IMG/VR virus record: IMGVR_UViG_3300046000_008568
Coordinates: 1-64,000 of that record
Reading direction: 5' to 3' (one strand)
DNA from: a virus
Length of the DNA: 64,000 nucleotides
Part shown: in pieces, positions 4,984 through 24,312 of the stretch
Layout: each line of letters opens with the position of its first letter
Position numbering within the stretch: position 1 is the stretch's first letter
Translations under genes and position numbers: made by a program
The notes under the pieces: generated by a model
Told to the model about the DNA's origin: nothing
Databases searched by the model: none
What the model saw: only the letters and a program-made list of their open reading frames with translations

Positions 4984-6051
4984 ATGAGTGATTTTAACCT
5001 ACATAACTTCTTAACCGAACATAAGTTAACTCGTAATTCGGTATTATTAGAAAATGATAATGCTCCTAGTTTTACTAAACAGGAGATGAGATTTTTTAAA
5101 CCTGAAGAAGCAAAATGGAATGGAGAAATGGATGGACTTACTCCTATTGTAACATATAAAGGACATTCATATAAACTAGATGGACCTACTGATACAAACA
5201 ATATAGAAAGAGAACCAGGAGAATCATCAGCAGCAGGAGATGCATATATGTCTACAGATAAACTACCTGGGGCTTGGTTTAAATTTAGTGCTTATTTTGA
5301 ATATGATGGTGACGGATATGGACTTGAAGATCTACTAGATCTAGAAGAAGTAGATCAAGACCCAGTATGGGAAATAGACCCAGACTCAGAAGACATCCCA
5401 GATGAAGAAGAATTTGACTTTGGTGATGAATTAGATGAACGTGACATAAAGGGTAAAGAAGAAAGAATCGTTAAAGCATTAAAAAAAACAGGAAAATATA
5501 GTAAAGACGATCCTGAACTATATAGATTAGCAGCAGGTATAATGAAAAAACAAAAATCAATGAAAGAAGATATAGATGTAGGCCATCAAGATAATGAACC
5601 ACATATGCTTAAAAGCGATGTTTATAGAACTGCTAAAATGGCAGCTATGTTATATAAGCAACTAGACAAATATGACAATGGTCAAGAAGTTGATTTTCCA
5701 CATTGGTGGCAAGCTAAAATAATTAAAGCATACGATTATTTACAAAGCGCTTATGGATATTTAGATGGTGAAGAAAAAGTAACAGCTATTGATTCAATGA
5801 TGAATGAAGTACAAGGCGAAGAATTGAGTCACGATATTGCTCTTATAGGTGGTACATTAAAAAAAATTGAAACAATGATTGACTTTGGTAGAGATCAAGA
5901 TCAAGACGTTGAAGAAGGATTACAAACTGTACTTAATATTTTAATTGATATTCAACATAAATTAGAAACAACCACTAAAGATGCCTCAGATATGGGTGGT
6001 GCTAGTAAATTTTATCAAATGGAAAATATATTAAAACAAATGGGTAAATAA
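4984..6051 (+). CDS. KLTRNS-tagged hypothetical protein (355 aa)
   Basis: The first 25 residues carry the tag [20 protein letters not shown], nearly identical to the tags at residues 1 and 575 of the 7394 product. The rest is acidic and helical, with a very acidic stretch near 115-155 ([25 protein letters not shown]). I recognise no domain. FLTE and LLE within the tag fit the (I/L)xE rule of T4 gp21 prohead protease sites. By analogy with T4 internal-protein leaders, the tag could target the protein into the prohead; this is inference. The stop overlaps the next ATG (TAATG). Confidence 0.6.
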
Positions 6052-6536
6052 TGGAATTTAAAACAAAAAAAGAACTAGAAGATTTTATTCGCGGGCGTGT
6101 ACGTCAACGTTTGAAAAAAACTGATACTGAAGCCTACCAAGGTGATCCTAGCTCCCCTATGAATATAATGTTGGCTCGTTTCCCTGAGTTAAGACAAACA
6201 TTAGAGAAGCTATTATCAATGCAATATAGATTGTTTGTTAGTGATATTGAATGGGTTGCTCCAAAACCAACTACATTTAAAATTCTATTACCTAATAAAC
6301 AATATTTTAATTTAATATGGAATACCGAAGATTTTATTGCTAAGGTATCGGGTATGAAATATGATATGCTTACTCTTCAAGAACGTGAGAGAGCGACTAA
6401 AGCTATATCGGAGTTACTTCAATTTGGCCCTGTACACGCTAATCTATCACCAGAAGAATTAGCTCAACAAGATCTAACACCAGCTAAAGGAGAAGCAGCT
6501 GCTCCACCTCCATTATCTCCAGAAGAATTAAGTTAA
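6051..6536 (+). CDS. Hypothetical protein with N-terminal IRGRVRQRLKK helix
   Basis: A 161-residue protein beginning with KKELEDFIRGRVRQRLKK, the same basic-helix type found at the start of the 12368 product. A middle region rich in aromatic residues (IEWVAPKPTTFKILLPNKQYFNLIW) looks like a small beta domain. The C-terminus is a low-complexity Pro/Ala/Glu tail (SPEELAQQ and SPEELS). It is coupled to the upstream tagged protein by a one-base overlap, and a weak terminator hairpin follows directly. Function unknown. Confidence 0.55.
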   Translation: MEFKTKKELEDFIRGRVRQRLKKTDTEAYQGDPSSPMNIMLARFPELRQTLEKLLSMQYRLFVSDIEWVAPKPTTFKILLPNKQYFNLIWNTEDFIAKVSGMKYDMLTLQERERATKAISELLQFGPVHANLSPEELAQQDLTPAKGEAAAPPPLSPEELS

Positions 6537-6540
6537 ATTT

Positions 6541-6563
6541 GGCTCCCGCAAGGAGCCTTATTA
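6541..6563 (+). terminator. Weak rho-independent terminator
   Basis: GGCTCC (6541-6546) pairs with GGAGCC (6552-6557) around a CGCAA loop, followed by TTATT. The T-tract is poor, so read-through is likely. It separates the tagged-protein unit from the exonuclease gene. Confidence 0.5.
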
Positions 6564-6572
6564 CATTTAAAC
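6561..6572 (+). promoter_or_regulatory. Weak host-like -7 box (TACATTTA) upstream of the exonuclease gene
   Basis: TTACATTTAAAC resembles the TTCGTAyATTTA boxes in front of 60267 and 62077 but lacks the CG. The ATG is at 6592. Low confidence because no clear -33 element is seen. Confidence 0.3.
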
Positions 6573-6591
6573 CCTAATTTAACATTACGTT

Positions 6592-7371
6592 ATGAACAAA
6601 AAGAAAAGATTATTTTTCGACATTGAAACAAGTCCGAACGTTGGATTTTTCTGGCAATCAGGATACAAACTGAACATTCCCTACACCAATATTATTAAAG
6701 AAAGAGCTATTATCTGTATTTGCTATAAATGGGCAGATGAAGACAAAGTATATTCTTTACAATGGGATAAAAATCAAGATGACAAGGCCATGTTAGAAAA
6801 ATTCATGGTTGTAGCTAACGAAGCTCATGAATTAGTAGGACATAATGGGGATCGATTCGATTTACCTTGGATCAGAACACGTTGTTTATTTCATGGTATT
6901 TCATGTTTTCCAACTTATGCTACTATCGACACATTAAAACATTCTCGTTCTAAATTTAGATTTAATAGTAATCGTTTAGATTATATTGCTAAATACTTAG
7001 GTGTGGGAGAAAAATCTGAAACCGGTGGTTTTGATTTGTGGAGAAATATCGTATTAGATAACGATAAAGACGCAATGAACACAATGGTGGAATATTGTAA
7101 AAATGATGTTGTTATACTTGAAAAAGTATATAATCACATTAAAAACTATGTACCACATAAAACACATTATGGTGCTTTAGAAACAGGAGAAAAAACATGT
7201 TGTCCTGAATGTGGATCAACTGATTTAAGACATTCACAAACTCGTTATTCTGCTGCTGGTACTCCACGTATCCAAATGCAATGTAATGATTGTCACAAAT
7301 ACCATACTGTTGCTAGTAGAACATATGATGCAATAATTGCTAAACAGTTTGAAGGGGAAGAGGAAGAGTAA
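6592..7371 (+). CDS. DEDDy 3'-5' exonuclease with C-terminal zinc ribbon
   Basis: RNase H-fold exonuclease related to the proofreading domain of family B polymerases. Motifs are ExoI DIETSP (D10, E12), ExoII HNGDRFDLPW (D90) and ExoIII YCKND (Y168, D172), which is the complete DEDDy set. After residue 200 a treble-clef or zinc-ribbon segment follows (CCPECGS ... CNDCHKYH), which probably binds zinc and nucleic acid. There is no polymerase domain; at 259 residues it is a stand-alone nuclease. It sits alone between virion-protein genes. It could act as repair nuclease or as proofreading partner for the polymerase-like product at 60267, the latter being speculation. Confidence 0.85.
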   Translation: MNKKKRLFFDIETSPNVGFFWQSGYKLNIPYTNIIKERAIICICYKWADEDKVYSLQWDKNQDDKAMLEKFMVVANEAHELVGHNGDRFDLPWIRTRCLFHGISCFPTYATIDTLKHSRSKFRFNSNRLDYIAKYLGVGEKSETGGFDLWRNIVLDNDKDAMNTMVEYCKNDVVILEKVYNHIKNYVPHKTHYGALETGEKTCCPECGSTDLRHSQTRYSAAGTPRIQMQCNDCHKYHTVASRTYDAIIAKQFEGEEEE

Positions 7372-7385
7372 ATATTTATTATAAA
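7371..7385 (+). promoter_or_regulatory. ATATTTAT late-type element upstream of the 7394 gene
   Basis: AATATTTATTATAAA overlaps the last base of the exonuclease stop and ends 8 bases before the ATG at 7394, leaving a very short leader. Confidence 0.42.
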
Positions 7386-7393
7386 ATATTTGC

Positions 7394-9886
7394 ATGGACA
7401 ATTTTGACTTAAAACGTTTTCTAATTGAAAATAAATTAACTCGCAACTCAATATTATTAAAAGAAAATATAAACATTGATAAACAGGGAAATCTTATATA
7501 TTCCTTAGAAGATGCAGGTATTGATTATAGTGATAGTTCTGAGATATTATTAACATGGGAAATTGATGAGATAAATCCAAATTTAATAAGAAAGTTTGAA
7601 TGGGATGATACTGAAGATACTATTCATACTTATATTGATGTTGATGAACTTAAAGATTTTATTAAAAATCCTGTAGAACTTATTAAAAAATTTGAAGCAC
7701 CTAATGGGTATGTTGTAGTAGATAAACAGGATGCACGTGATTTAATGGAATCATATTATGAAAACTTTGAGGATGAAATTGACCCTGAATTAAATGAAAA
7801 TCACTTAACTCGTAATTCACAATTAATAGATGAAGCTGTCCAAATAGCTACAGACTATCAATTTAGTCCTGAGCAATATGATGTATTAAAAAAGTTTGGA
7901 GCTAAACTTCATCTTAATGGTCGTGAACTTTTACTCCCAGCAAGAATATATGATGATTTAGAAAAACATGTTAGTAAATCTAATTTTAAACAGGAATTTT
8001 ACAAAACAGTAAAAAATATAGGAGGTGAATCTATAATTTCCCAAATATTAACGGCATTAAAATACTCATTATCTTCAGGGAATACAGCTAATGTAGAAGG
8101 TAAAACATATTACGTTTTACAAGGGAAATTAACTAGAAATGGAAATTTTAATTTTCCTAATCCTTCTAGAACTGGTGGAGCTATAGTTAAAACTAAATTT
8201 CAAGATATAGAACCAGAATCAGAACCAGAAGACATAGCAAATATATCTAAAAAATATAATAAATGGGATGTAGATGCTATAGAAAAAGAAGCTGCTAAAT
8301 ATACTAAAGCTTTTGAATTTGAAAAAGCTAACAGAAATGCCTATAGAGCTTATAGAAGAGCAGTTGACCAAGGTTTAATTCAAAACAAATTTGAAATAGA
8401 TATTAAATGGACTAAAGATGCTATAGAACAAGAAGCAGCTAAATATAACAAACCAAGTGAATTTCAAAAAGCAAATCCAAATGCTTATATAGCATACAGA
8501 AAAGCAGTCAACAAAGGTATTATCCCAAATAAATTTGAAGAACCTTTTAAGTGGACTATTGAAAAACTAGAACAAGAAGCAACCAAATATAATACATCTG
8601 GTGAATTTTCTAAAGCAAGTCCAAATGCTTATGTAGCATACAGAGCAGCAGTCAACAAAGGTATTATCCCAAATAAATTTGAAGAAAATGTTAAATGGAC
8701 TAAAGATACCCTAGAACAGGAAGCTGCTAAATACAATACAGCAGGTGAATTTTCTCAATTAAATCCAAATGCTTATGCAGCATACAGAACAGCAGTTAGA
8801 AAAGATATTATTCAAAACAAATTTGGAGAACGAAAGTATGATATAAAGTGGACCAAAGACGCTTTAGAACAAGAAGCATCTAAGCATAATAGACCAATTG
8901 ACTTTCGAAACTCAAATCCAAATGCTTATAGTTTATACCGAATAGCAGTTAGAAACGGCATAATTCAAGACAAATTTAAACAGAGTAAAACTACTTCTGC
9001 TGATCCTTCCACAACAACATCACAATCTACAAATCCAACTCAATCAAGTAATCTATATAATAATCCCTATTTTGGAAATACAACAACAACATTCGATAAA
9101 TTAAAAGAAAATAAAATGCAAGACTTTGACTTAAAACGTTTTCTAGTTGAAAACAAAATGACTAGAAACTCAAGACTACTAAATGAAAATCTTACCTACG
9201 AAACACTCCCACCAGAGGTAAAACAACGTTATGAAAATAATGGTAGAATAGGGGTTGCTTTTGTAAAAGCAAATGGAGCTGTACGACATATGTCATTTAG
9301 TAAAACACTTAAAGCATACCAACCAAGCACAGCTGCTAAAACAGATGCTCAAGCTAATTATCGTCAAAACAATAATTTATGGAGTGGGTATGATGTAAAT
9401 GAATTTATAAAAGCTAAAAAAGAAACGGGAGATGATGCTGCTGCTGCTAAACAAAGTTTTAGAAACTTTAAATTAGAAAATGTATTAGCTTTTTCTGCTG
9501 GTGGTAGAATATTTGATATGCGTGATTTAAATAACATTGTTGAAAGATTTGGTGAAGATGTAGCAGATCAATTAACCAAAACCATGATTCAATCCCTAGA
9601 AAGAGATTCAGCTGCTACTGAACCAACAGTAGATGAATCTCAATTAAATGAAAATATGTCTGATTTAGTAGTTACTTACTATAAAGATAAAGATAGTTAT
9701 GATGAAAAAGGTCTAGCTGATGGTTTTCATGAAGAAGAAGGAAAAAAAGTAAAATTCATTGTTGGGTATGATGATATGGATGAAATAGATGATATAGGAT
9801 ATATCTATTCAAAAAGTGGAAAGGATATTGAAACTGAATACACTGAAGATGATTTAGATAATACTTTTATGAATTCATTACAATAA
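7394..9886 (+). CDS. Multi-tag protein (830 aa) with three KLTRNS tags and five 48-residue repeats; possible head-internal polyprotein
   Basis: Tag 1 (FDLKRFLIENKLTRNSILL) is at residues 4-22, tag 2 (NENHLTRNSQLIDEA) at 134-148, and tag 3 (MQDFDLKRFLVENKMTRNS) at 575-593. Residues 290-532 are five tandem units of about 48 residues starting KW[TD].[ED].[IL]E.EA.K[YH] and ending AYR.AV..GII.[ND]KF; similar units occur in phage endonuclease-associated proteins and may be helix-turn-helix-like DNA binders. A Thr/Ser/Asn-rich linker (537-572) precedes tag 3. The ATG of tag 3 (9116) follows an AAAGAAAATAAA leader and could be an internal start. Each tag ends near an (I/L)xE sequence suited to a gp21-like protease. 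Function is unproven. Confidence 0.65.
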   Translation: MDNFDLKRFLIENKLTRNSILLKENINIDKQGNLIYSLEDAGIDYSDSSEILLTWEIDEINPNLIRKFEWDDTEDTIHTYIDVDELKDFIKNPVELIKKFEAPNGYVVVDKQDARDLMESYYENFEDEIDPELNENHLTRNSQLIDEAVQIATDYQFSPEQYDVLKKFGAKLHLNGRELLLPARIYDDLEKHVSKSNFKQEFYKTVKNIGGESIISQILTALKYSLSSGNTANVEGKTYYVLQGKLTRNGNFNFPNPSRTGGAIVKTKFQDIEPESEPEDIANISKKYNKWDVDAIEKEAAKYTKAFEFEKANRNAYRAYRRAVDQGLIQNKFEIDIKWTKDAIEQEAAKYNKPSEFQKANPNAYIAYRKAVNKGIIPNKFEEPFKWTIEKLEQEATKYNTSGEFSKASPNAYVAYRAAVNKGIIPNKFEENVKWTKDTLEQEAAKYNTAGEFSQLNPNAYAAYRTAVRKDIIQNKFGERKYDIKWTKDALEQEASKHNRPIDFRNSNPNAYSLYRIAVRNGIIQDKFKQSKTTSADPSTTTSQSTNPTQSSNLYNNPYFGNTTTTFDKLKENKMQDFDLKRFLVENKMTRNSRLLNENLTYETLPPEVKQRYENNGRIGVAFVKANGAVRHMSFSKTLKAYQPSTAAKTDAQANYRQNNNLWSGYDVNEFIKAKKETGDDAAAAKQSFRNFKLENVLAFSAGGRIFDMRDLNNIVERFGEDVADQLTKTMIQSLERDSAATEPTVDESQLNENMSDLVVTYYKDKDSYDEKGLADGFHEEEGKKVKFIVGYDDMDEIDDIGYIYSKSGKDIETEYTEDDLDNTFMNSLQ
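8261..8989 (+). repeat. Five tandem ~48-codon repeats
   Basis: Units begin at bases 8261, 8405, 8549, 8693 and 8846 (codons 290, 338, 386, 434 and 485). The spacing is 144, 144, 144 and 153 bases, the fourth unit carrying three extra codons. They are clearly diverged copies of one module, not recent exact duplications. Confidence 0.9.
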
Positions 9887-13113: not shown

Positions 13114-14697
13114 ATGAGTGAACAACAAAACATAAAAGAGATAATCAAACAGGAATACATTAAATGTATGACAGATCCTGCTCATTTTATGAAAAAATAT
13201 TGTATGATTCAACATCCAACAAGGGGAAGAATACAATTTAATTTATATCCGTTTCAAGAAAAGGTTTTATTTCAATTTCAAAAAAATAATTACAACGTTG
13301 TATTAAAATCTAGACAGTTAGGTATATCAACCCTAGTAGCTGGTTTTTCTTTATGGTTAATGTTATTTCAAAGTGATAAAAATATACTTTGTATAGCGAC
13401 AAAACAAGAAACAGCTAAAAACATGGTAACAAAAGTACGATTCATGTACGATAATTTACCATCTTGGTTAAAAGGAGCCGAGAAACCCTTGGAGAACAAC
13501 AAACTCTTACTTAAATTACCAAACGGATCTCAAGTTAAAGCAGTATCAGCAGCTGGGGATGCCGGTCGTTCAGAAGCCGTATCTTTACTTATAATAGATG
13601 AGGCCGCGTTCATTGATAGTATACATGAAATATTTGCTTCTGCTCAACAAACATTAGCAACGGGAGGAGGATGTATAGCATTATCTACTCCAAACGGAAC
13701 CGGAAACTGGTTTCACCAAACATGGCAAAAAGCAGAAATAGGATCCAATTCATTTGTTCCAATTAGGTTAAAATGGAATGTACATCCTGAACGAAATCAA
13801 GTATGGCGTGATCAACAAGATGCCGATTTAGGAATTAAAATGGCTGCTCAGGAATGTGATTGCGATTTTAATACTTCCGGAGATACAGTATTCGAAGCTG
13901 ATGTAATGCAATGGGTTGAAGCAAATATTGTAGAACCTGTTGAAAAGCGAGGAACCGATGGTAATCTATGGATTTGGGAACAACCAGATTATAATAAATC
14001 ATATTTAGTAACAGCAGACGTTGCACGAGGAGATGGAAAAGATTACTCAGCATGCCATGTTTTTGATCTTGAAACATCAACACAAGTAGCCGAATATAAA
14101 GGACAAATAGGAACTCGCGATTACGGACATTTATTAGTTGGTTTAGCAGCAGAATACAATGATGCTTTATTAGCAATTGAAAATGCAAATGTGGGTTGGG
14201 ATACTGTACAAACAGCAATCGATAGAGGATATAAAAACTTATATTACTCACCTAAAACAGAAGCATACACATCAGATCAATGGGCTAGACGATCAGAAAA
14301 TCTAGATAGTTTAGTAGCTGGTTTTACAACATCAGTTAAAACACGCCCTTTAATGATTGAAAAATTTAGAGAATATACTCATGAAAAAGCATGTGTTATT
14401 AAATCTAAACGTTTATTAGATGAAATGAAAGTGTTTATCTGGAAAAACGGTAAACCACAAGCCCAAGAAGGATACAATGACGACGCCGTAATGTCATTTA
14501 GTATGGGATTATATTTAAGAGATACAGCATTAAGATTTAGAAAATCTAATGTAGAATACGATAGAACAAATTTAATGAATATGACTATGGATAGAGGTAC
14601 CATGAATGCTATAAACGCACACGGGCAACAAATGGCTAATCCATGGGCTATACAAGCAGATCATGGTAAAGAAGATATTACCTGGTTATTAAGATAA
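13114..14697 (+). CDS. Terminase large subunit (T4 gp17-like)
   Basis: Packaging motor ATPase-nuclease. Walker A-like KSRQLGIST (65-73) is the characteristic variant of T4-type terminases. Walker B is LLIIDEAAF (D162, E163), and STPNGTGNW is the coupling motif. The C-terminal RNase H-like nuclease has three acidic positions: TADVARGDGKDYSA (D302), AIENANVGWDT (E356) and YNDDAVMSF (D456/D457). The length of 527 residues is near the usual 500-600. It is followed by the portal gene after 16 bases, the standard packaging pair. No small-terminase gene is recognisable next to it. Confidence 0.96.
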   Translation: MSEQQNIKEIIKQEYIKCMTDPAHFMKKYCMIQHPTRGRIQFNLYPFQEKVLFQFQKNNYNVVLKSRQLGISTLVAGFSLWLMLFQSDKNILCIATKQETAKNMVTKVRFMYDNLPSWLKGAEKPLENNKLLLKLPNGSQVKAVSAAGDAGRSEAVSLLIIDEAAFIDSIHEIFASAQQTLATGGGCIALSTPNGTGNWFHQTWQKAEIGSNSFVPIRLKWNVHPERNQVWRDQQDADLGIKMAAQECDCDFNTSGDTVFEADVMQWVEANIVEPVEKRGTDGNLWIWEQPDYNKSYLVTADVARGDGKDYSACHVFDLETSTQVAEYKGQIGTRDYGHLLVGLAAEYNDALLAIENANVGWDTVQTAIDRGYKNLYYSPKTEAYTSDQWARRSENLDSLVAGFTTSVKTRPLMIEKFREYTHEKACVIKSKRLLDEMKVFIWKNGKPQAQEGYNDDAVMSFSMGLYLRDTALRFRKSNVEYDRTNLMNMTMDRGTMNAINAHGQQMANPWAIQADHGKEDITWLLR

Positions 14698-14713: not shown

Positions 14714-16576
14714 ATGATAGATACATCCTTATTTGGTAGATTAAAACGATTATTCTCAAACGACGTAATCATTAGGAACGTTGGTGGGAGCCAAATACAA
14801 GTAATAGACAGTGATCACATCCAAGCAACTGGTGTGGTACAAACCAATATGTACCCGGAAAGATACCAACGTATCTATACTGGAGGTTTAGGCACATATG
14901 TTGGTAACTCTCCCTACTCCAACTATACAGTATTAAGACCTCAACTATATAATGATTATGAGGTAATGGATGGTGACCCAATTGTTGCTTCTGTATTAGA
15001 TATTGTAGCAGATGAGTCTACATTGAAAAATGGAGCAGGTGAAGTATTAGCTATTAAATCTGCTGACGAAAATATTCAAAGAATATTATACAATTTATTT
15101 TACGATGTACTTAATATCGAATTTAACCTTTGGGGTTGGGTTCGTTCAATGTGTAAGTATGGTGATTTTTATTTACATATGCATATTGCTGAAAAGTATG
15201 GTGTGTATCAAGTTGTTCCACTTAACGTTTATAACGTAATTAGAGAAGAAGGGTTAGATCCTAAAAATCCATCATATGTTCAATTTAGAGTTGAACCAAA
15301 TGCAGCATATACAGGTGTATTAGGTGGGTTAGATAATAAAGACATGGTTTTTGAAAACTATGAGGTAGCCAACTTCAGACTATTAGGTGATTATAACTTT
15401 CTACCTTATGGAAGATCATATATCGAACCAGCTCGTAAAATATTTAAGCAATTAGCGTTGATGGAAGATGCAATGTTAATTCACCGTATATTAAGAGCAC
15501 CACAACGTAGAGTTTATTACGTGGATACTGGAAATGTTCCACCAAATGAAATTCCTGCGTTCATGGAAAAATTAAAAGGACAAACTCAACGTACTCCTAT
15601 GGTTGATCCAAAAACAGGTGAATACAATTTACGTTACAACATGATGACTGTAAATGAGGATTTCTATATACCTGTTAGAGGTGGAAACACATCAACTAAA
15701 ATTGATACTTTACCTGGTCTTGAATACAACGCTATTGATGATGTTGTTTACTTAAGAGACAAAATGTTATCTGCTATGAAAGTGCCAAAAGCATTTTTAG
15801 GATATGAAGCAGATGTTGAAGGTAAATCTACATTAGCACAACAAGATATTCGTTTTGCTCGTACAATTGAGCGTATTCAACGTATTGTTGTATCTGAATT
15901 AACTAAAATAGCATTAGTTCACTTATATGCTCAAGGGTATACTGATGAGAACTTAACAAACTTTGAATTAGAATTAACTACTCCATCTATTGTTTACGAT
16001 CAAGAAAGAGTAGCATTAATGAAAGAAAAAGTTGATTTGGCTAAACAAATCATGGATGCTAGTTTATTCCCAACTGACTATATTTACGATTATTTATTCC
16101 ATATGAGTGAAGACAAATATGATGACATGAGAGATCTTGTTGTTGAAGATAAAAAACGTATGTTTAGATTATCTCAAATTGAAAACGAAGGTAATGACCC
16201 TGTTACAAGTGGTCAATCATATGGAACACCACATGATCTTGCTTCACTGTATGGTAAAGGAAGAAACGATATGGGTGTACCACCACCATATGATGAAGAA
16301 GTACCTGTTGGAAGACCACAAGAAAAAACATCTGTTTATAATACACAAAAACGTATATTAGGTAAAGATCCACTTGGTAAATCTAGAGATCTTAACCCGG
16401 ATACACCAGCGGCTCCAACCCCTAAAGGTGGTTCACCATTAGCGCTTGAGTCAACTAAAGCAATATATGCACAAAATAAACAAATGCTTAGTGAAATGTT
16501 TGTTAAATCTAATGTATTTAGTAAAGAAGAAACAGGTTCCTCATTATTAGATGAATCAAATCTTAAAGATCTATAA
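14714..16576 (+). CDS. Portal protein (T4 gp20-like)
   Basis: A 620-residue dodecameric portal of the T4 gp20 family. Diagnostic stretches are the N-terminal MDGDPIVASVLDIVADEST, PLNVYNVIREEGLDP in the clip/stem region, MEDAMLIHRILRAPQRRVYYVDTG before the stem, and KMLSAMKVPKAFLGYEADVEGKSTL. It follows the terminase and precedes the head-core genes, as in T4. The C-terminal 100 residues are Pro/Gly-rich (GRNDMGVPPPYDEEVPVGRPQ), as in other T4-like portals that end in a flexible tail. Confidence 0.95.
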   Translation: MIDTSLFGRLKRLFSNDVIIRNVGGSQIQVIDSDHIQATGVVQTNMYPERYQRIYTGGLGTYVGNSPYSNYTVLRPQLYNDYEVMDGDPIVASVLDIVADESTLKNGAGEVLAIKSADENIQRILYNLFYDVLNIEFNLWGWVRSMCKYGDFYLHMHIAEKYGVYQVVPLNVYNVIREEGLDPKNPSYVQFRVEPNAAYTGVLGGLDNKDMVFENYEVANFRLLGDYNFLPYGRSYIEPARKIFKQLALMEDAMLIHRILRAPQRRVYYVDTGNVPPNEIPAFMEKLKGQTQRTPMVDPKTGEYNLRYNMMTVNEDFYIPVRGGNTSTKIDTLPGLEYNAIDDVVYLRDKMLSAMKVPKAFLGYEADVEGKSTLAQQDIRFARTIERIQRIVVSELTKIALVHLYAQGYTDENLTNFELELTTPSIVYDQERVALMKEKVDLAKQIMDASLFPTDYIYDYLFHMSEDKYDDMRDLVVEDKKRMFRLSQIENEGNDPVTSGQSYGTPHDLASLYGKGRNDMGVPPPYDEEVPVGRPQEKTSVYNTQKRILGKDPLGKSRDLNPDTPAAPTPKGGSPLALESTKAIYAQNKQMLSEMFVKSNVFSKEETGSSLLDESNLKDL

Positions 16577-19854: not shown

Positions 19855-20496
19855 ATGAGCAAACAACTATTAATAGAACGTATTTCCAATTTTACTTTAA
19901 CGCCCCAACTATTACAAGAGTCAGTTAGAGTAAATAAAGGCCGTCTTATTGTTGAAGGAGTAGTACAACGTGCTAATGCTGAAAACGGTAATAGACGTGT
20001 TTATCCTGAGGATACTTTAAGAAGAGAAGTACAGAAATATAAAGACACATATATTAAGGAAAATAGAGCATTAGGTGAATTAGATCATCCTGAATCTCCA
20101 ATTATCAATTTAAAAAATGTATGTCATAATATATTAGATTTATGGTGGCAAGGTGATGATGTAATGGGTAAAATTGAAATATTACCTACACCATCTGGAA
20201 ACATATTAAAAGAATTACTTTTAGCAGGTATTACTGTTGGTATTTCTTCTCGTGCTATGGGGTCTGTAAAACAAATTGGTGAAACAGTTGAAGTACAAGA
20301 CGATTTAGATATCGTATGTTGGGATTTTGTTTCAACACCATCAACACAAGGTGCGTTTATGGAAATTGTAAATGAATCTCTTAATCATAATGCACCAAAA
20401 CAACAACCACAATTGCAAAAAATTAACGAATTAATAACAGATATTCTTTGCAACAGAGCTGGATTTTGCTCTTGCGATTTACCAAATACCAAATAA
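19855..20496 (+). CDS. Prohead core protease (T4 gp21-like)
   Basis: Maturation serine protease of the T4 gp21 (peptidase U9) family. RALGELDHPESP carries the catalytic histidine (H78) and GITVGISSRAMGS the nucleophilic serine (S131 or S132). The opening RLIVEGVVQRANAENGNRRVYPEDTLRREV is the typical N-terminal strand pair. It lies directly before the scaffold/capsid unit, as in T4. It should cleave head proteins after (I/L)xE sequences, and many neighbouring proteins offer such sites near their N-termini. The end is cysteine-rich (CNRAGFCSCDLP), which is unusual for the family and may bind a metal. Confidence 0.93.
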   Translation: MSKQLLIERISNFTLTPQLLQESVRVNKGRLIVEGVVQRANAENGNRRVYPEDTLRREVQKYKDTYIKENRALGELDHPESPIINLKNVCHNILDLWWQGDDVMGKIEILPTPSGNILKELLLAGITVGISSRAMGSVKQIGETVEVQDDLDIVCWDFVSTPSTQGAFMEIVNESLNHNAPKQQPQLQKINELITDILCNRAGFCSCDLPNTK

Positions 20497-20497
20497 C

Positions 20498-20869
20498 ATG
20501 GAAGAATTAGCATCAATTTTATTACACTCACAAACACAAACTCATATATTTCATTTAGGAGTAAGTGGAGCTGGAGCATATGCTGCTCATAAAGCACTTC
20601 AAAAATATTATGAAAGTATTGACGGTGTAGTTGATGGGTTAGTTGAATCCTACCAAGGTAAAAATGGATTAATCGAATTTAAACCAGTAATGGGGTTAGA
20701 TAATAATTGTGATACAAGAAACATAATTGCTTATTTTGATAAAATATGTGCTATTGTAAAAACATTACGTCAAGCTCCTGATCTAGCTGATAGTTATATT
20801 CAAAATCAAATAGACACGGTTGAAGATTTAATATACTCAACTAAATATAAATTAATAAACTTACAATAA
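20498..20869 (+). CDS. Ferritin/Dps-like four-helix protein (DUF5856-like)
   Basis: A 123-residue helical protein with HIFHLGVSGAGAYAAHKALQKYY near the start and DGLVESYQGKNGLI in the middle, the layout of the phage DUF5856 family, which is predicted to be ferritin-like. Usual members have HxxH/W...SYaxHkAL; here one His of the first helix is kept and GVSGAGAYAAH replaces the more usual sequence. Whether it binds iron is unknown. It is inserted between protease and scaffold genes and may be a virion or head-assembly component. Confidence 0.7.
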   Translation: MEELASILLHSQTQTHIFHLGVSGAGAYAAHKALQKYYESIDGVVDGLVESYQGKNGLIEFKPVMGLDNNCDTRNIIAYFDKICAIVKTLRQAPDLADSYIQNQIDTVEDLIYSTKYKLINLQ

Positions 20870-20870
20870 T

Positions 20871-21146
20871 ATGCCATTTCCATCAGCTGTCCTAGTACTA
20901 GCAGGACAATCAATAACAGGCTCATATAATAGATTTCAAGTACTAGCTTCGGGTTCAGTAGTATCCGCAGGAGGATCAGCATTTGCAGTTGGTCATATTT
21001 CTGCATTAAGAGATGGTAATGGAAATGCCTTTACCTTTTCTACAAGTTCCGGAATATTCTTACCTCCAGGTACAGTTGTAGATTTAATGATAACAAGCGC
21101 TTCTTTAGATACAACAAGTGCTCCAATAATGTTTTTTCAAGTATAA
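20871..21146 (+). CDS. Small beta-rich structural protein (91 aa)
   Basis: Ser/Gly/Ala-rich beta-type protein (SAVLVLAGQSITGSYNRFQVLASGSVV ... TSSGIFLPPGTVVDLMITSAS). The composition matches phage surface proteins such as head decoration or fibre-linked subunits, not enzymes. It sits one base after the ferritin-like gene and before a small basic protein and terminator, in the head cluster. A decoration-protein role is plausible but not shown. Confidence 0.6.
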   Translation: MPFPSAVLVLAGQSITGSYNRFQVLASGSVVSAGGSAFAVGHISALRDGNGNAFTFSTSSGIFLPPGTVVDLMITSASLDTTSAPIMFFQV

Positions 21147-21164
21147 AATAATAAATTTATTCCA

Positions 21165-21311
21165 ATGGCAGCAAAGGCAAAAACCAGTTCCGTTATTAGT
21201 TATATAGCGAAACCAAAAAGAAAAAGACCAGGTGTTCATTCAAAAAATAAAACATCTAAGTTAAAAAATTCAAAAAATTACAAAAAACTATATATAGGTC
21301 AAGGAAATTAA
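21165..21311 (+). CDS. Small basic head-region protein (48 aa)
   Basis: A 48-codon frame encoding a very basic protein with KPKRKRPGVHSKNKTSKLKN and SKNYKKLYIGQGN. I recognise this pattern (KRKRPGVH.K.KTS..K.SKNYKK.Y.GQG) as a conserved micro-protein in T4-like environmental phages, where it lies close to head genes. The high positive charge suggests binding to DNA or RNA, or to the acidic scaffold. It ends 5 bases before a strong terminator stem. Confidence 0.8.
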   Translation: MAAKAKTSSVISYIAKPKRKRPGVHSKNKTSKLKNSKNYKKLYIGQGN

Positions 21312-21316
21312 AAAAG

Positions 21317-21343
21317 AACCGCAACGATGTTGCGGTTTTTTAT
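21317..21343 (+). terminator. Strong rho-independent terminator
   Basis: Nine-base-pair perfect stem AACCGCAAC/GTTGCGGTT (21317-21325 and 21329-21337) with a GAT loop, running into a T-tract. It ends the portal-to-protease head unit. Confidence 0.93.
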
Positions 21344-21352
21344 TTTATACAT

Positions 21353-21361
21353 ATATTTATT
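21353..21361 (+). promoter_or_regulatory. ATATTTAT late-type element for the scaffold/capsid unit
   Basis: ATATTTATT lies just after the terminator and about 104 bases before the scaffold ATG at 21465, much further than the usual 8-40 bases. The transcript would have an unusually long leader. Confidence 0.45.
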
Positions 21362-21371
21362 AAGGACCAAT

Positions 21372-21440
21372 GAGATATCCTTATATATCTCGTCACTACA
21401 AACACAAATCCCTATTAAGCTTTTACTCAATAAGCTTATT
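21372..21440 (+). promoter_or_regulatory. Structured leader of the scaffold/capsid mRNA
   Basis: The leader holds a hairpin (GAGATAT 21372-21378 with ATATCTC 21385-21391) and a perfect palindrome AATAAGCTTATT at 21429-21440. AGGAAAAA just before the ATG is one of the better ribosome-binding sites in the window. It may stabilise or control the most abundant late mRNA; this is inference. Confidence 0.4.
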
Positions 21441-21464
21441 CCACAAAACAAATTTTAGGAAAAA

Positions 21465-22634
21465 ATGAAAGACACAAAAGCCCTTTTAAAGGAAGCTATT
21501 GCTGATGCTAAAGCCGTTCGTGAAACCGCTCTTACACAAGCAAAACTTGCTCTTGAAGAAGCCTTCGCTCCACGTCTACAGTCAATGTTCTCTGCTCGAT
21601 TAAGAGAAGAATATGAAGCTGAAGGTCAAATGGATGAAGAATTCGACGAAAACATGATGAATGATATCCCTATGGAGGGACATGACCAAGACAACTCTAT
21701 AGACGAAATCGACCTTGACGAAATTCTTGCAGAATTAGAAAATGAATTAAACGAAGCAAAAGACGAAGACGAAGAAGAAATGATCGACGCTGAAGAAGAT
21801 GCTGAAGACATTGAAGATGATGCTAAAGAAGACGAAGAAGAGGAAAAAGAAGTTAAAGACTTATCTATGGATGAGTTAGAAAGTTTAATTAAAGACATCA
21901 TCTCTCAGGAAACTGGAGGTGCTGGTGACGGAGAAGGCTACGAAGACGAAGCTGAAGTTGACGCTATGGATATGGCTGGTGATGCAGAAATAGCTGCAGA
22001 CGAGGAAGACATAAATTTAGAAGAAGACTTAGACGACATCTTAGCTGAGTTATTAGGTGAAAAAAGAGAAAGCCGTGCTGAAAGATCTAAAGTAGACAAA
22101 TATGAATACGAAAAAGGTAAAAAAGCAGGTGAATTAGACGAACGTAAAAAACAAGGCTACGACGATCGTGAAGACGAAAGAGAAGCAGGAAAACATGGTA
22201 AAATAGGTTCAAAAGATCTTAATACTACTAAAGCCCGCAGAGATGATGCCGGATTTGAGAAAAGAATGAATGAAGAATTAGCATTAGCTTTAGAAGCTGT
22301 TAAAACTCTTCGTACTGAACTTAATGAAGTTAATCTATTAAACGCTAAGTTACTTTACGTTAATAAAATCTTTAACGCTAAAAACTTAAACGAGTCACAA
22401 AAATTAAAAGTTGTGAAAGCATTTGACAAAGCAGAATCTGCTAAAGAAGCTAAATTAGTATATGAGTCACTTTCAGAAGCATTCGTTGCTCCTACTAAAG
22501 GTAAAACTCAATTGAAAGAATCATTAGGATTCGCTTCTAAAGCTGCAGGTATGGCTCCTAGAAAACTAATCGTTGAAAACAACGAATGGATAACTAGAAT
22601 GCAAAAATTAGCAAACATAAACCAAACAAATTAA
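21465..22634 (+). CDS. Prohead core scaffold protein (T4 gp22-like)
   Basis: The helical N-terminus (KDTKALLKEAIADAKAVRETALTQAKLALEEAF) is followed by a long acidic middle (DEDEEEMIDAEEDAEDIEDDAKEDEEEEK and similar, residues 95-205) and a charged helical C-terminus. This is the composition and position of T4 gp22, the assembly core degraded by gp21. It precedes the capsid gene by 10 bases in the same unit. At 389 residues it is longer than T4 gp22, mostly because of the acidic insert. Multiple (I/L)xE sites are present, as expected for a protein digested during maturation. Confidence 0.88.
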   Translation: MKDTKALLKEAIADAKAVRETALTQAKLALEEAFAPRLQSMFSARLREEYEAEGQMDEEFDENMMNDIPMEGHDQDNSIDEIDLDEILAELENELNEAKDEDEEEMIDAEEDAEDIEDDAKEDEEEEKEVKDLSMDELESLIKDIISQETGGAGDGEGYEDEAEVDAMDMAGDAEIAADEEDINLEEDLDDILAELLGEKRESRAERSKVDKYEYEKGKKAGELDERKKQGYDDREDEREAGKHGKIGSKDLNTTKARRDDAGFEKRMNEELALALEAVKTLRTELNEVNLLNAKLLYVNKIFNAKNLNESQKLKVVKAFDKAESAKEAKLVYESLSEAFVAPTKGKTQLKESLGFASKAAGMAPRKLIVENNEWITRMQKLANINQTN

Positions 22635-22644
22635 AATTAAAAAA

Positions 22645-24312
22645 ATGGACAATTTAAACATGCTCTTAGAAGGAGCAAATCCATGGAAAAGCCAACAAGC
22701 AGAAGCAGCAAGAGTTGCTACTAAATGGCAAAAAAGTGGACTTCTTGAAGGAATCAGTAACCAAGTTGAGAAAAACAACATGGCTGTTATCCTTGAAAAC
22801 CAGGCAAAACAGTTAGTAGTTGAAACTAACGTTACTTCTGGTACAAACTCAATGTTAGGTGGTACTGGTGAAAACTGGGCTGGTATTGCATTGCCTTTAG
22901 TACGTAGAGTATTCGCTGAAATCGTAGCTAAAGAATTCGTATCTGTACAACCAATGGCTATGCCTTCTGGTCTTGTATTTTATCTAGATTTCCAATACGG
23001 AAATAATAAAACTCCGTTCCAACAAAATAAATCACTTTACGGTTCATTAGCTGATGTTCAAGCTACAAATGCTGATATCTCTAACGTTAACCCAACAGGT
23101 GGTCTTTACGGACAAGGTAGATATGGTTACTCAATGAACCAATTCTCACAATCTATAGCTTATTCTGCATCTTTAGTAAATTCATTAAGCCAAGTTAACT
23201 GGGATTCTCGTTACGAGTCTTCTACTGGGTCATTATATGTAATTAACTTCTCAGCAGCCTCAGCTTCTTTACTTACAAATGCTGACTTCTTAGCTGCAGC
23301 TGCATTTATTCCAAGTAGCTCTTTGATCAATGGATTAAACGTATTACAACAGTTTACTAACTACGTAAGTAGCTCATCAACTGCACAATTAACATTTGTT
23401 ACAACAGCTGCTTTAACGGGTGCTAATTCATCTGGTTCTTGTACAGTTTACTTTGAAAAACAAACTACTCCTGCATTAAGAGGTGATTTTGAAGCTGATA
23501 ATACTGGAATCGCTATTCCTAACTCATTGAGTGAAACTCAAATCGTTATTCCAACCGTTAACATCCAAATGAAATCAGATGCTATCGTTGCGAAAACTCG
23601 TAAATTGAAAGCACAATGGACTCCTGAGTTAGCTCAAGATTTGAATGCTTACCAAAACATCGATGCTGAAGCTGAATTAACTGGATTGTTATCTCAATAC
23701 ATCGCTATGGAGATTGACTTAGAAATCTTAGGTATGTTGACTGAAGAAGCAGCTACTACAGGATACTGGTCAGCAGAAAACAATAAAGTTTGGAATGGTT
23801 CAACATTCGTTCAAACTTCAACTACAACTGGTGGTTTCTATAACACACAAGGTGGTTGGTTCGCAACTTTAGGTACAGTATTACAATCAGTATCTAACAA
23901 AATCTTGCAAAAAACTCTTAGAGGTCAAGCTAACTTCTTGGTAATTTCTCCAGCAGTAGCTACTATCATGCAGTCTATCCCAGGATATGCTTCTGATGCA
24001 GGTGCTGAATTGGATAAAGTATTCAACTTTGGTAGCCAAAAAATTGGTTCTCTAAACTCTCGTTACAAAGTATATGTAAATCCTTACTTTAGTGATAACG
24101 TAATCCTTATGGGTTATAAAGGTGCTCAATTCTTGGAATCAGGTGCTGTTTATGCTCCATACGTTCCGTTGTTAATGACTCCACTTGTGTACGATCCTGA
24201 AACTTTCACACCAAGAAAAGGTATCATGACTCGTTACGCTAAGAAAATGGTACGTCCTGAATTCTACGGTAAAGTATTCGTTAATGGTTTAAATGCCTTA
24301 GGTATTAACTAA
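22645..24312 (+). CDS. Major capsid protein (T4 gp23-like)
   Basis: HK97-fold capsid protein of the gp23 family. Diagnostic segments are NWAGIALPLVRRVFAEIVAKEFVSVQPM, which follows the propeptide, and KSDAIVAKTRKLKAQWTPELAQDLNAYQ and DAEAELTGLLSQYIAMEIDLEIL in the core. The N-terminal ~65 residues should be removed by the protease; ILEN (near 51-54) fits the (I/L)xE cleavage rule. A Ser/Ala-rich region near residues 195-275 looks like an insertion. The length of 555 residues is close to gp23 (about 520). A strong terminator follows. Confidence 0.95.
   Translation: MDNLNMLLEGANPWKSQQAEAARVATKWQKSGLLEGISNQVEKNNMAVILENQAKQLVVETNVTSGTNSMLGGTGENWAGIALPLVRRVFAEIVAKEFVSVQPMAMPSGLVFYLDFQYGNNKTPFQQNKSLYGSLADVQATNADISNVNPTGGLYGQGRYGYSMNQFSQSIAYSASLVNSLSQVNWDSRYESSTGSLYVINFSAASASLLTNADFLAAAAFIPSSSLINGLNVLQQFTNYVSSSSTAQLTFVTTAALTGANSSGSCTVYFEKQTTPALRGDFEADNTGIAIPNSLSETQIVIPTVNIQMKSDAIVAKTRKLKAQWTPELAQDLNAYQNIDAEAELTGLLSQYIAMEIDLEILGMLTEEAATTGYWSAENNKVWNGSTFVQTSTTTGGFYNTQGGWFATLGTVLQSVSNKILQKTLRGQANFLVISPAVATIMQSIPGYASDAGAELDKVFNFGSQKIGSLNSRYKVYVNPYFSDNVILMGYKGAQFLESGAVYAPYVPLLMTPLVYDPETFTPRKGIMTRYAKKMVRPEFYGKVFVNGLNALGIN

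Follow-up and report, generated by a model that had tools for sequence, protein, structure and literature searches.

Why should proteins that have nothing else in common open with the same short peptide? The question is raised by a viral stretch of 64,000 nucleotides (IMG/VR virus record IMGVR_UViG_3300046000_008568, positions 1 to 64,000; hereafter the window), in which two proteins encoded from positions 4984 and 7394 carry a segment that we call tag 1, with the consensus M..F[DN]LKKFLxENKLTxNS[KR]xLxE. A sequence-only reading had proposed that this segment is a leader of the kind known from phage T4, which directs proteins into the prohead and is cut off by the protease gp21. Our analysis makes it highly probable that tag 1 works like the T4 capsid-targeting sequence (CTS). 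What is new here, as judged from sequence comparison, is a second leader (tag 2) on more than 100 diverse proteins, which is identical in its core with the C-terminal tail of the scaffold itself.

A repeated leader on unrelated proteins

Together, the two proteins hold three full tags and one half tag. Copy A forms residues 1-25 (4984..5058, +) of a 355-residue protein (4984..6051, +) and contains the candidate gp21 sites FLTE↓H and LLE↓N (arrows mark predicted cuts). Copy B forms residues 1-25 (7394..7468, +; MDNFDLKRFLIE↓NKLTRNSILLKE↓N) of an 830-residue protein (7394..9886, +), while copy C lies inside the same protein at residues 575-599 (9116..9190, +; MQDFDLKRFLVE↓NKMTRNSRLLNE↓N) and has retained its Met. 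The half tag ENHLTRNSQLIDE was found by profile at residues 135-147 (7796..7834, +; E=1.9e-4). A profile built from the three full tags gave these scores of 78-85 and the half tag a score of 36.7; no other 21-mer in a six-frame translation of the whole window exceeded 25.3, which excludes chance and confirms the repeat both at the two protein starts and inside the second protein. The bodies behind the tags showed no mutual BLAST similarity, as the sequence-only reading had held. Beyond the window, the 165,861-bp record (G000) has one further full tag, at 139010. Codons differed at identical tag residues in 52% (G000) and 44% (Flavobacterium phage immuto) of within-genome comparisons, which argues for old conservation at the peptide level and not for recent DNA duplication.

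A degenerate DNA pattern searched against IMG/VR collected tag 1 from at least 120 stretches. After reduction to at most 70% identity over 80 residues counted from the tag, at least 118 non-redundant proteins remained, with the tag at the start Met in 117 of the 118. Masking the tags left bodies that fell into 68 BLAST families, varied in length (67-830 residues) and content, and were nearly all without known domains; the sets of cargo also varied among related genomes. The upstream F[DN]L was needed in this search because FLxENKLTxN alone, which we discarded as a key, also matches an unrelated internal KNDVRS..FLIENKLT family. Among sequenced isolates, only records of phage immuto were found to bear tag 1, on four proteins (gp003, gp076, gp077 and gp092). 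A search of 84,980 bacterial and archaeal species genomes (257 Gb of contigs) returned 10 pattern matches, only two of which were real tags, both on a single contig that encodes gp21 and looks phage-derived; a cellular origin of tag 1 was therefore rejected.

The search imposed the columns F1, D/N2, L3, F/Y6, L7, N10, K11, T13 and N15. Among the columns left free, Glu9 was conserved in 108/112 tags, Lys/Arg4 in 106/112, Ser16 in 97/112, Glu21 in 79/112 and Leu19 in 73/112. Of the 118 tags, 114 (97%) had [LIVM]xE ending at position 9, 78 (66%) at position 21 and 33 (28%) at position 20, compared with 0-3% at the other positions listed. Both places match the T4 gp21 rule L/I-x-E, and the FLxE Glu, kept in 97% of the 118 non-redundant tags without having been asked for, bears out the earlier claim that the tags fit this rule. 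Conservation extends 12 residues past FLxE, up to the second (L/I)xE, so either site may be the one that is cut.

Variants of tag 1 were also observed. In L037, L056, L066, L105 and L113 it is followed by a conserved ...I(K/Y)..PG(N/K)(T/V)G segment. Copies at the C-terminus, comprising the first half (FDLRKFLAEN) or the whole tag, occur in L039, L040, L046 and L091; the proteins of L039 and L040 end in FDLRKFLAENRK, and those of L039, L040 and L091 bear an N-terminal tag 1 as well.

A second leader and the tail of the scaffold

The gene at 139779-140075 of G000, which adjoins the tagged gene at 139010, begins with a different leader (MKKQFITEAKRLQKLAGIITES), and its body shows 78% identity over 67 residues to the body of L060, which starts with tag 1. 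This leader is tag 2, (L/I)xE..RMQKLAGI(I/L)xE. A scan for R[MLW]QKLAGI, in which the downstream (T/N)E was imposed and the upstream (L/I)xE left free, found 114 non-redundant N-terminal tag-2 proteins in 87 body families, two of them in immuto (gp083 and gp230). The upstream (L/I)xE was present in 86% of these leaders, and gp21 was found in 7/7 tag-2 records above 62 kb.

The same R[MLW]QKLAGI forms the extreme C-terminus of the protein at the scaffold position in the window, in immuto (gp067) and in many relatives. In the window, this putative gp22-like scaffold (21465..22634, +) is acidic, lies between gp21 and gp23 and ends in LIVE↓NNEWITRMQKLANINQTN, with the tail that supplies the tag-2 core (RMQKLAxI) at 22578..22631 (+). 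An acidic protein between gp21 and gp23 characterizes the gene order of the window (19855-24312), immuto and Microcystis phage Mel-JY01. The local hhalign match to T4 gp22 was weak (E=0.0012, probability 19%), so the name 'gp22-like' is based mainly on the position of the gene, the composition of the protein and its tail.

The tail is more widespread than the tags. It ends the scaffold of Mel-JY01, in which N-terminal tags of either kind are absent, and that of a 484-kb uncultured phage, and in Rhodothermus phage RM378 it terminates, in the form RIKRLAGL, the protein encoded ahead of the capsid gene. In a wider survey of 80 contigs found by capsid-protein similarity, 75 tail matches were C-terminal and none N-terminal or internal, and [LIVM]xE stood within 14 residues upstream of the tail in 73 of the 75. 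The scaffolds of T4 (gp22: SVYAKVASRF), KVP40-like phages and cyanophages have other C-terminal ends. Because of this wider distribution, we regard the tail as a conserved scaffold element, from which the cargo tag seems to have been copied later.

The two leaders are exchanged on shared bodies. In at least nine body families, some members bear tag 1 and others tag 2 (L043 MKDNFNLRTFLTENKLTQNSRALKEEVDYSIELLVPE and L296 MAKQILNEEFSRMQKLAGIITEEQSNYSIELLVPK, for instance), and a tag-2 homologue was found for 10/73 tag-1 families compared with 7/217 untagged families from the same contigs (Fisher P=0.0024). Relatives of the same bodies bear further short (L/I)xE leaders such as MKKLIRIVE, MFNLENILNE and MKQSITE. 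Both tags occur in immuto, G000 and G006, while G021, G024, G025 and G026 have tag 2 and no tag-1 match. A possible third leader type, K[ST]ELKxxIxE, was noticed by inspection in several proteins, but scanning three genomes with a regular expression gave only one match. On these comparisons, tags 1 and 2 can replace each other, and the destination they point to is the prohead core. The strongest argument for this destination is that unrelated leaders swap on the same cargo and that one of them is the scaffold's own tail.

Head genes, fused modules and cargo

In the window, the head genes follow closely downstream of the tags; they include the large terminase (13114..14697, +), a gp20-like portal protein (14714..16576, +) and a gp23-like major capsid protein (22645..24312, +) with the candidate maturation site LVVE↓T at residue 60. 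The gp21-like prohead protease that the sequence-only reading had placed at 19855 (19855..20496, +) was verified by Pfam Peptidase_S77 (E=2.4e-28) and a PHROG head maturation protease (E=4e-57), and has candidate sites of its own (LLIE↓R and LLQE↓S). This association holds beyond the window: gp21 was found in 15 of the 18 records with confirmed tags, the remaining three being fragments of 58-112 kb. Tags within 12 kb of gp21 numbered 28 of 49, compared with 12.6 expected under uniform placement; in a stricter test, which grouped tags into clusters and used only records no shorter than 100 kb, 9 of 19 clusters were near gp21 compared with 3.3 expected (P=0.003). The gene directly after gp21 is itself tagged in G002, G005 and G007.

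Directly behind the gp21 gene, the window encodes a DUF5856 / PHROG 858 protein (20498-20869), whose PHROG description is the same as that of T4 rI.-1. A T4-like late promoter (TATAAATA) upstream of tagged genes was uninformative, with 7-of-8 matches everywhere in the AT-rich genome. The idea that tag 1 copies a capsid-protein N-terminus was rejected as coincidence: such a beginning (MNNFDLSQF) was seen in the capsid protein of one phage, the 484-kb LR756508, and no tag-1-like F-D-L..F-L start was present among the other capsid proteins of the wider group.

The 830-residue protein is composed of three tagged modules (residues 1-134, 135-574 and 575-830), the second of which is opened by the half tag. 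The third module occurs as a stand-alone tagged protein in L126, and a homologue of the second in L286 has MIKLTNLLKE ahead of the same body. By this homology, the internal tags are the starts of fused modules, and comparable fusions are seen in L032, L038, L052, L058, L108, L109 and L174. Cleavage by gp21 at the tags would separate the three modules inside the head, as in a polyprotein; translation might also start internally, at the retained Met. Module 2 contains five copies of a helical repeat of ~48 residues (8255..8980, +; consensus KWTKDxxEQEAxKYxxxxEFxxxNPNAYxxYRxAVxxGIIxxKF), similar to PHROG 20046, a family listed as function unknown.

The body of the 4984 protein holds a VGHQDNEP...FPHWWQAK domain (window ~5570-5810), which recurs with several different leaders in immuto gp079 and many other head-proximal proteins; no family in Pfam or PHROG matched it. 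Other (L/I)xE leaders precede homologous bodies, namely MFNLENILNE in L119 and MKKLIRIVE in immuto gp079. Structure models of the 4984 and 7394 proteins were too poor for fold assignment (mean predicted local distance difference test scores of 50 and 44), and the 4984 model found nothing in the PDB below E=0.1.

Body similarity joined 24 tag-1 proteins into one cluster, including immuto gp077, whose gene (117631-118632) lies just upstream of the terminase. The annotation of gp077 as cob(I)alamin adenosyltransferase looks spurious, as its relatives, the members of this cluster, matched no such family. Anti-defence annotation of the cargo with PADLOC gave weak matches only. The tag-2 protein L311:3425-3988 (+) resembles 2H phosphoesterases, with two H-x-T motifs (PHCTLLYGL and PHMTIAY), and matched the Pfam family Acb1, directed against the cyclic-oligonucleotide-based anti-phage signaling system (CBASS), at E=4.9e-6 and 26.8 bits, just under the cut-off of 27. 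As a lead only, it is a candidate anti-CBASS enzyme carried in the head. Immuto encodes a 7-deazaguanine DNA-modification set (NC_055915, 18607-37015; queC, queD, queE, folE, queF and dpdA as annotated) in addition to many tagged proteins, a parallel to the modified DNA and injected anti-restriction proteins of T4.

Proposed capsid targeting and the competing explanations

In the mechanism that we propose, the leader, written onto many unrelated proteins, would dock its cargo on the scaffold core or the inner shell surface during head assembly. A gp21-type protease would then remove it at (L/I)xE, first at FLxE and possibly also at LLxE, and the freed cargo would stay beside the DNA in the head and might accompany it into the next host. 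The conserved FLxE Glu, the link to gp21, the exchange of tags and their near-absence from cellular genomes all support the original idea of a head-import leader of the T4 type.

Like the CTS of the T4 internal proteins IPI-III, tag 1 is a short N-terminal leader that is common to unrelated proteins, ends in (I/L)xE and occurs together with gp21. In T4, targeting requires CTS residues 4 and 7 and processing residues 8 and 10, and gp21 cuts at L/I-x-E (PMC9026906). The hydrophobic spacing can be aligned by eye (T4 Y4xxF7-I8-x-E10 with tag-1 L6xxF9-L10-x-E12), but this superposition of YxxF-I-x-E and LxxF-L-x-E is a resemblance, in which no homology was detected at the sequence level. One tag-2 leader contains MKKQFITEA, to be compared with T4 MKTYQEFIAE. 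Tag 1 differs from the T4 leader in its ~21-25 conserved residues (10 in T4) and two (L/I)xE sites, in its many more cargo families, internal fusions and C-terminal copies, and in that a leader copied from the tail of the scaffold can take its place. By analogy, we describe tag 1 as probably CTS-like in its working and do not claim membership by descent. Among other systems, the N-terminal 10-30 residues of phage P1 DarB direct the protein into the head for host delivery (PMC9024508), whereas the leader here is common to dozens of families and tied to the scaffold. In the giant phage SPN3US, N-terminal propeptides of ejection proteins are cut by the prohead protease, and gp53 and gp54 are diverged proteins with identical N-termini (PMC5694885); however, these propeptides exceed 100 residues and belong to one paralogous pair, and a gp22 counterpart is not confirmed. 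A text search of the open-access literature, which is not proof of absence, found no published use of these tag peptides.

Several points weigh against capsid targeting. Conservation at the imposed columns is partly a product of how the searches were built. NKLTxNS is conserved beyond FLxE, more than a leader that is simply cut off should require; this segment may act as another docking element, reflect a requirement on the P' side or indicate that the real cut is at LLxE. The FLxE Glu is absent from four tags, one of which (L105) lacks the second site as well. Several tags lie far from head genes (139010 of G000; immuto gp003), and tag 1 has no detectable sequence homology to the T4 leader. 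The scaffold is identified from gene order, its tail and the weak T4 gp22 profile match, and no virion proteomics of a tagged phage (immuto or relatives) was found in the open-access literature.

Some of these points would suit the alternative that survives best, which we nevertheless consider unlikely: a peptide that permanently docks proteins to the head or to some other part of the virion and is never cleaved, with (L/I)xE belonging to an amphipathic helix. Besides the conservation running through NKLTxNS to LLxE and the four missing Glu residues, it could appeal to the existence of half tags and C-terminal copies; the latter, however, are no argument against cleavage, since T4 Alt is processed at both ends (PMC9026906). 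A permanent peptide does not account well for a nearly invariant Glu beside a free neighbor (V/T/I/A/S), as at a P1 site, nor for the fact that [LIVM]xE also occurs in tag 2, just ahead of the scaffold tail and in the other leaders of the same bodies.

We give much less credence to a destination outside the head, such as the host membrane, RNA polymerase or a replication compartment. The few tagged genes that lie far from the head genes (139010, gp003 and also immuto gp092) and the absence of a known function for almost every body would be compatible with such targets, but neither the clustering at gp21 nor the identity of the interchangeable tag 2 with the scaffold's C-terminus would then be explained. 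Very improbable, too, is a single ancestor whose descendants diverged past recognition, leaving the tag as the conserved end of one family: the 24-member cluster speaks for it, yet bodies so different in length and content, and the same bodies with tag 2 or other leaders, speak against it. Least credible of all is a peptide without function, left by recombination or gene conversion or by a translation-start signal in the DNA, since the tags, although they nearly always begin at a start codon and T4 ip genes sit in a variable genomic region, differ in synonymous codons, are kept as peptides in internal and C-terminal copies and are swapped, not merely duplicated.

For capsid targeting itself, the identity of a cargo tag with the scaffold's own tail offers a concrete and testable docking mechanism for localization to the core. 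A 2023 review called protein localization in the T4 scaffolding core still mysterious (PMC9958956). With moderate confidence, we propose that the scaffold C-terminal tail serves as a portable loading code, that any protein bearing tag 2 or tag 1 is incorporated into the prohead and passed on to the host, and that the tags mark ~150 families of effectors that are injected and for the most part unknown, including an Acb1-like one. All three T4 internal proteins inhibit GmrSD restriction enzymes and have only the leader in common (PMC12373910), and the ~150 tagged body families therefore form a list of candidates for anti-defence and host takeover. Because the tags are recognizable from sequence, they would single out the proteins that probably enter the host with the DNA. 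The phages concerned have been little studied as a group; an isolate, Flavobacterium phage immuto, is available.

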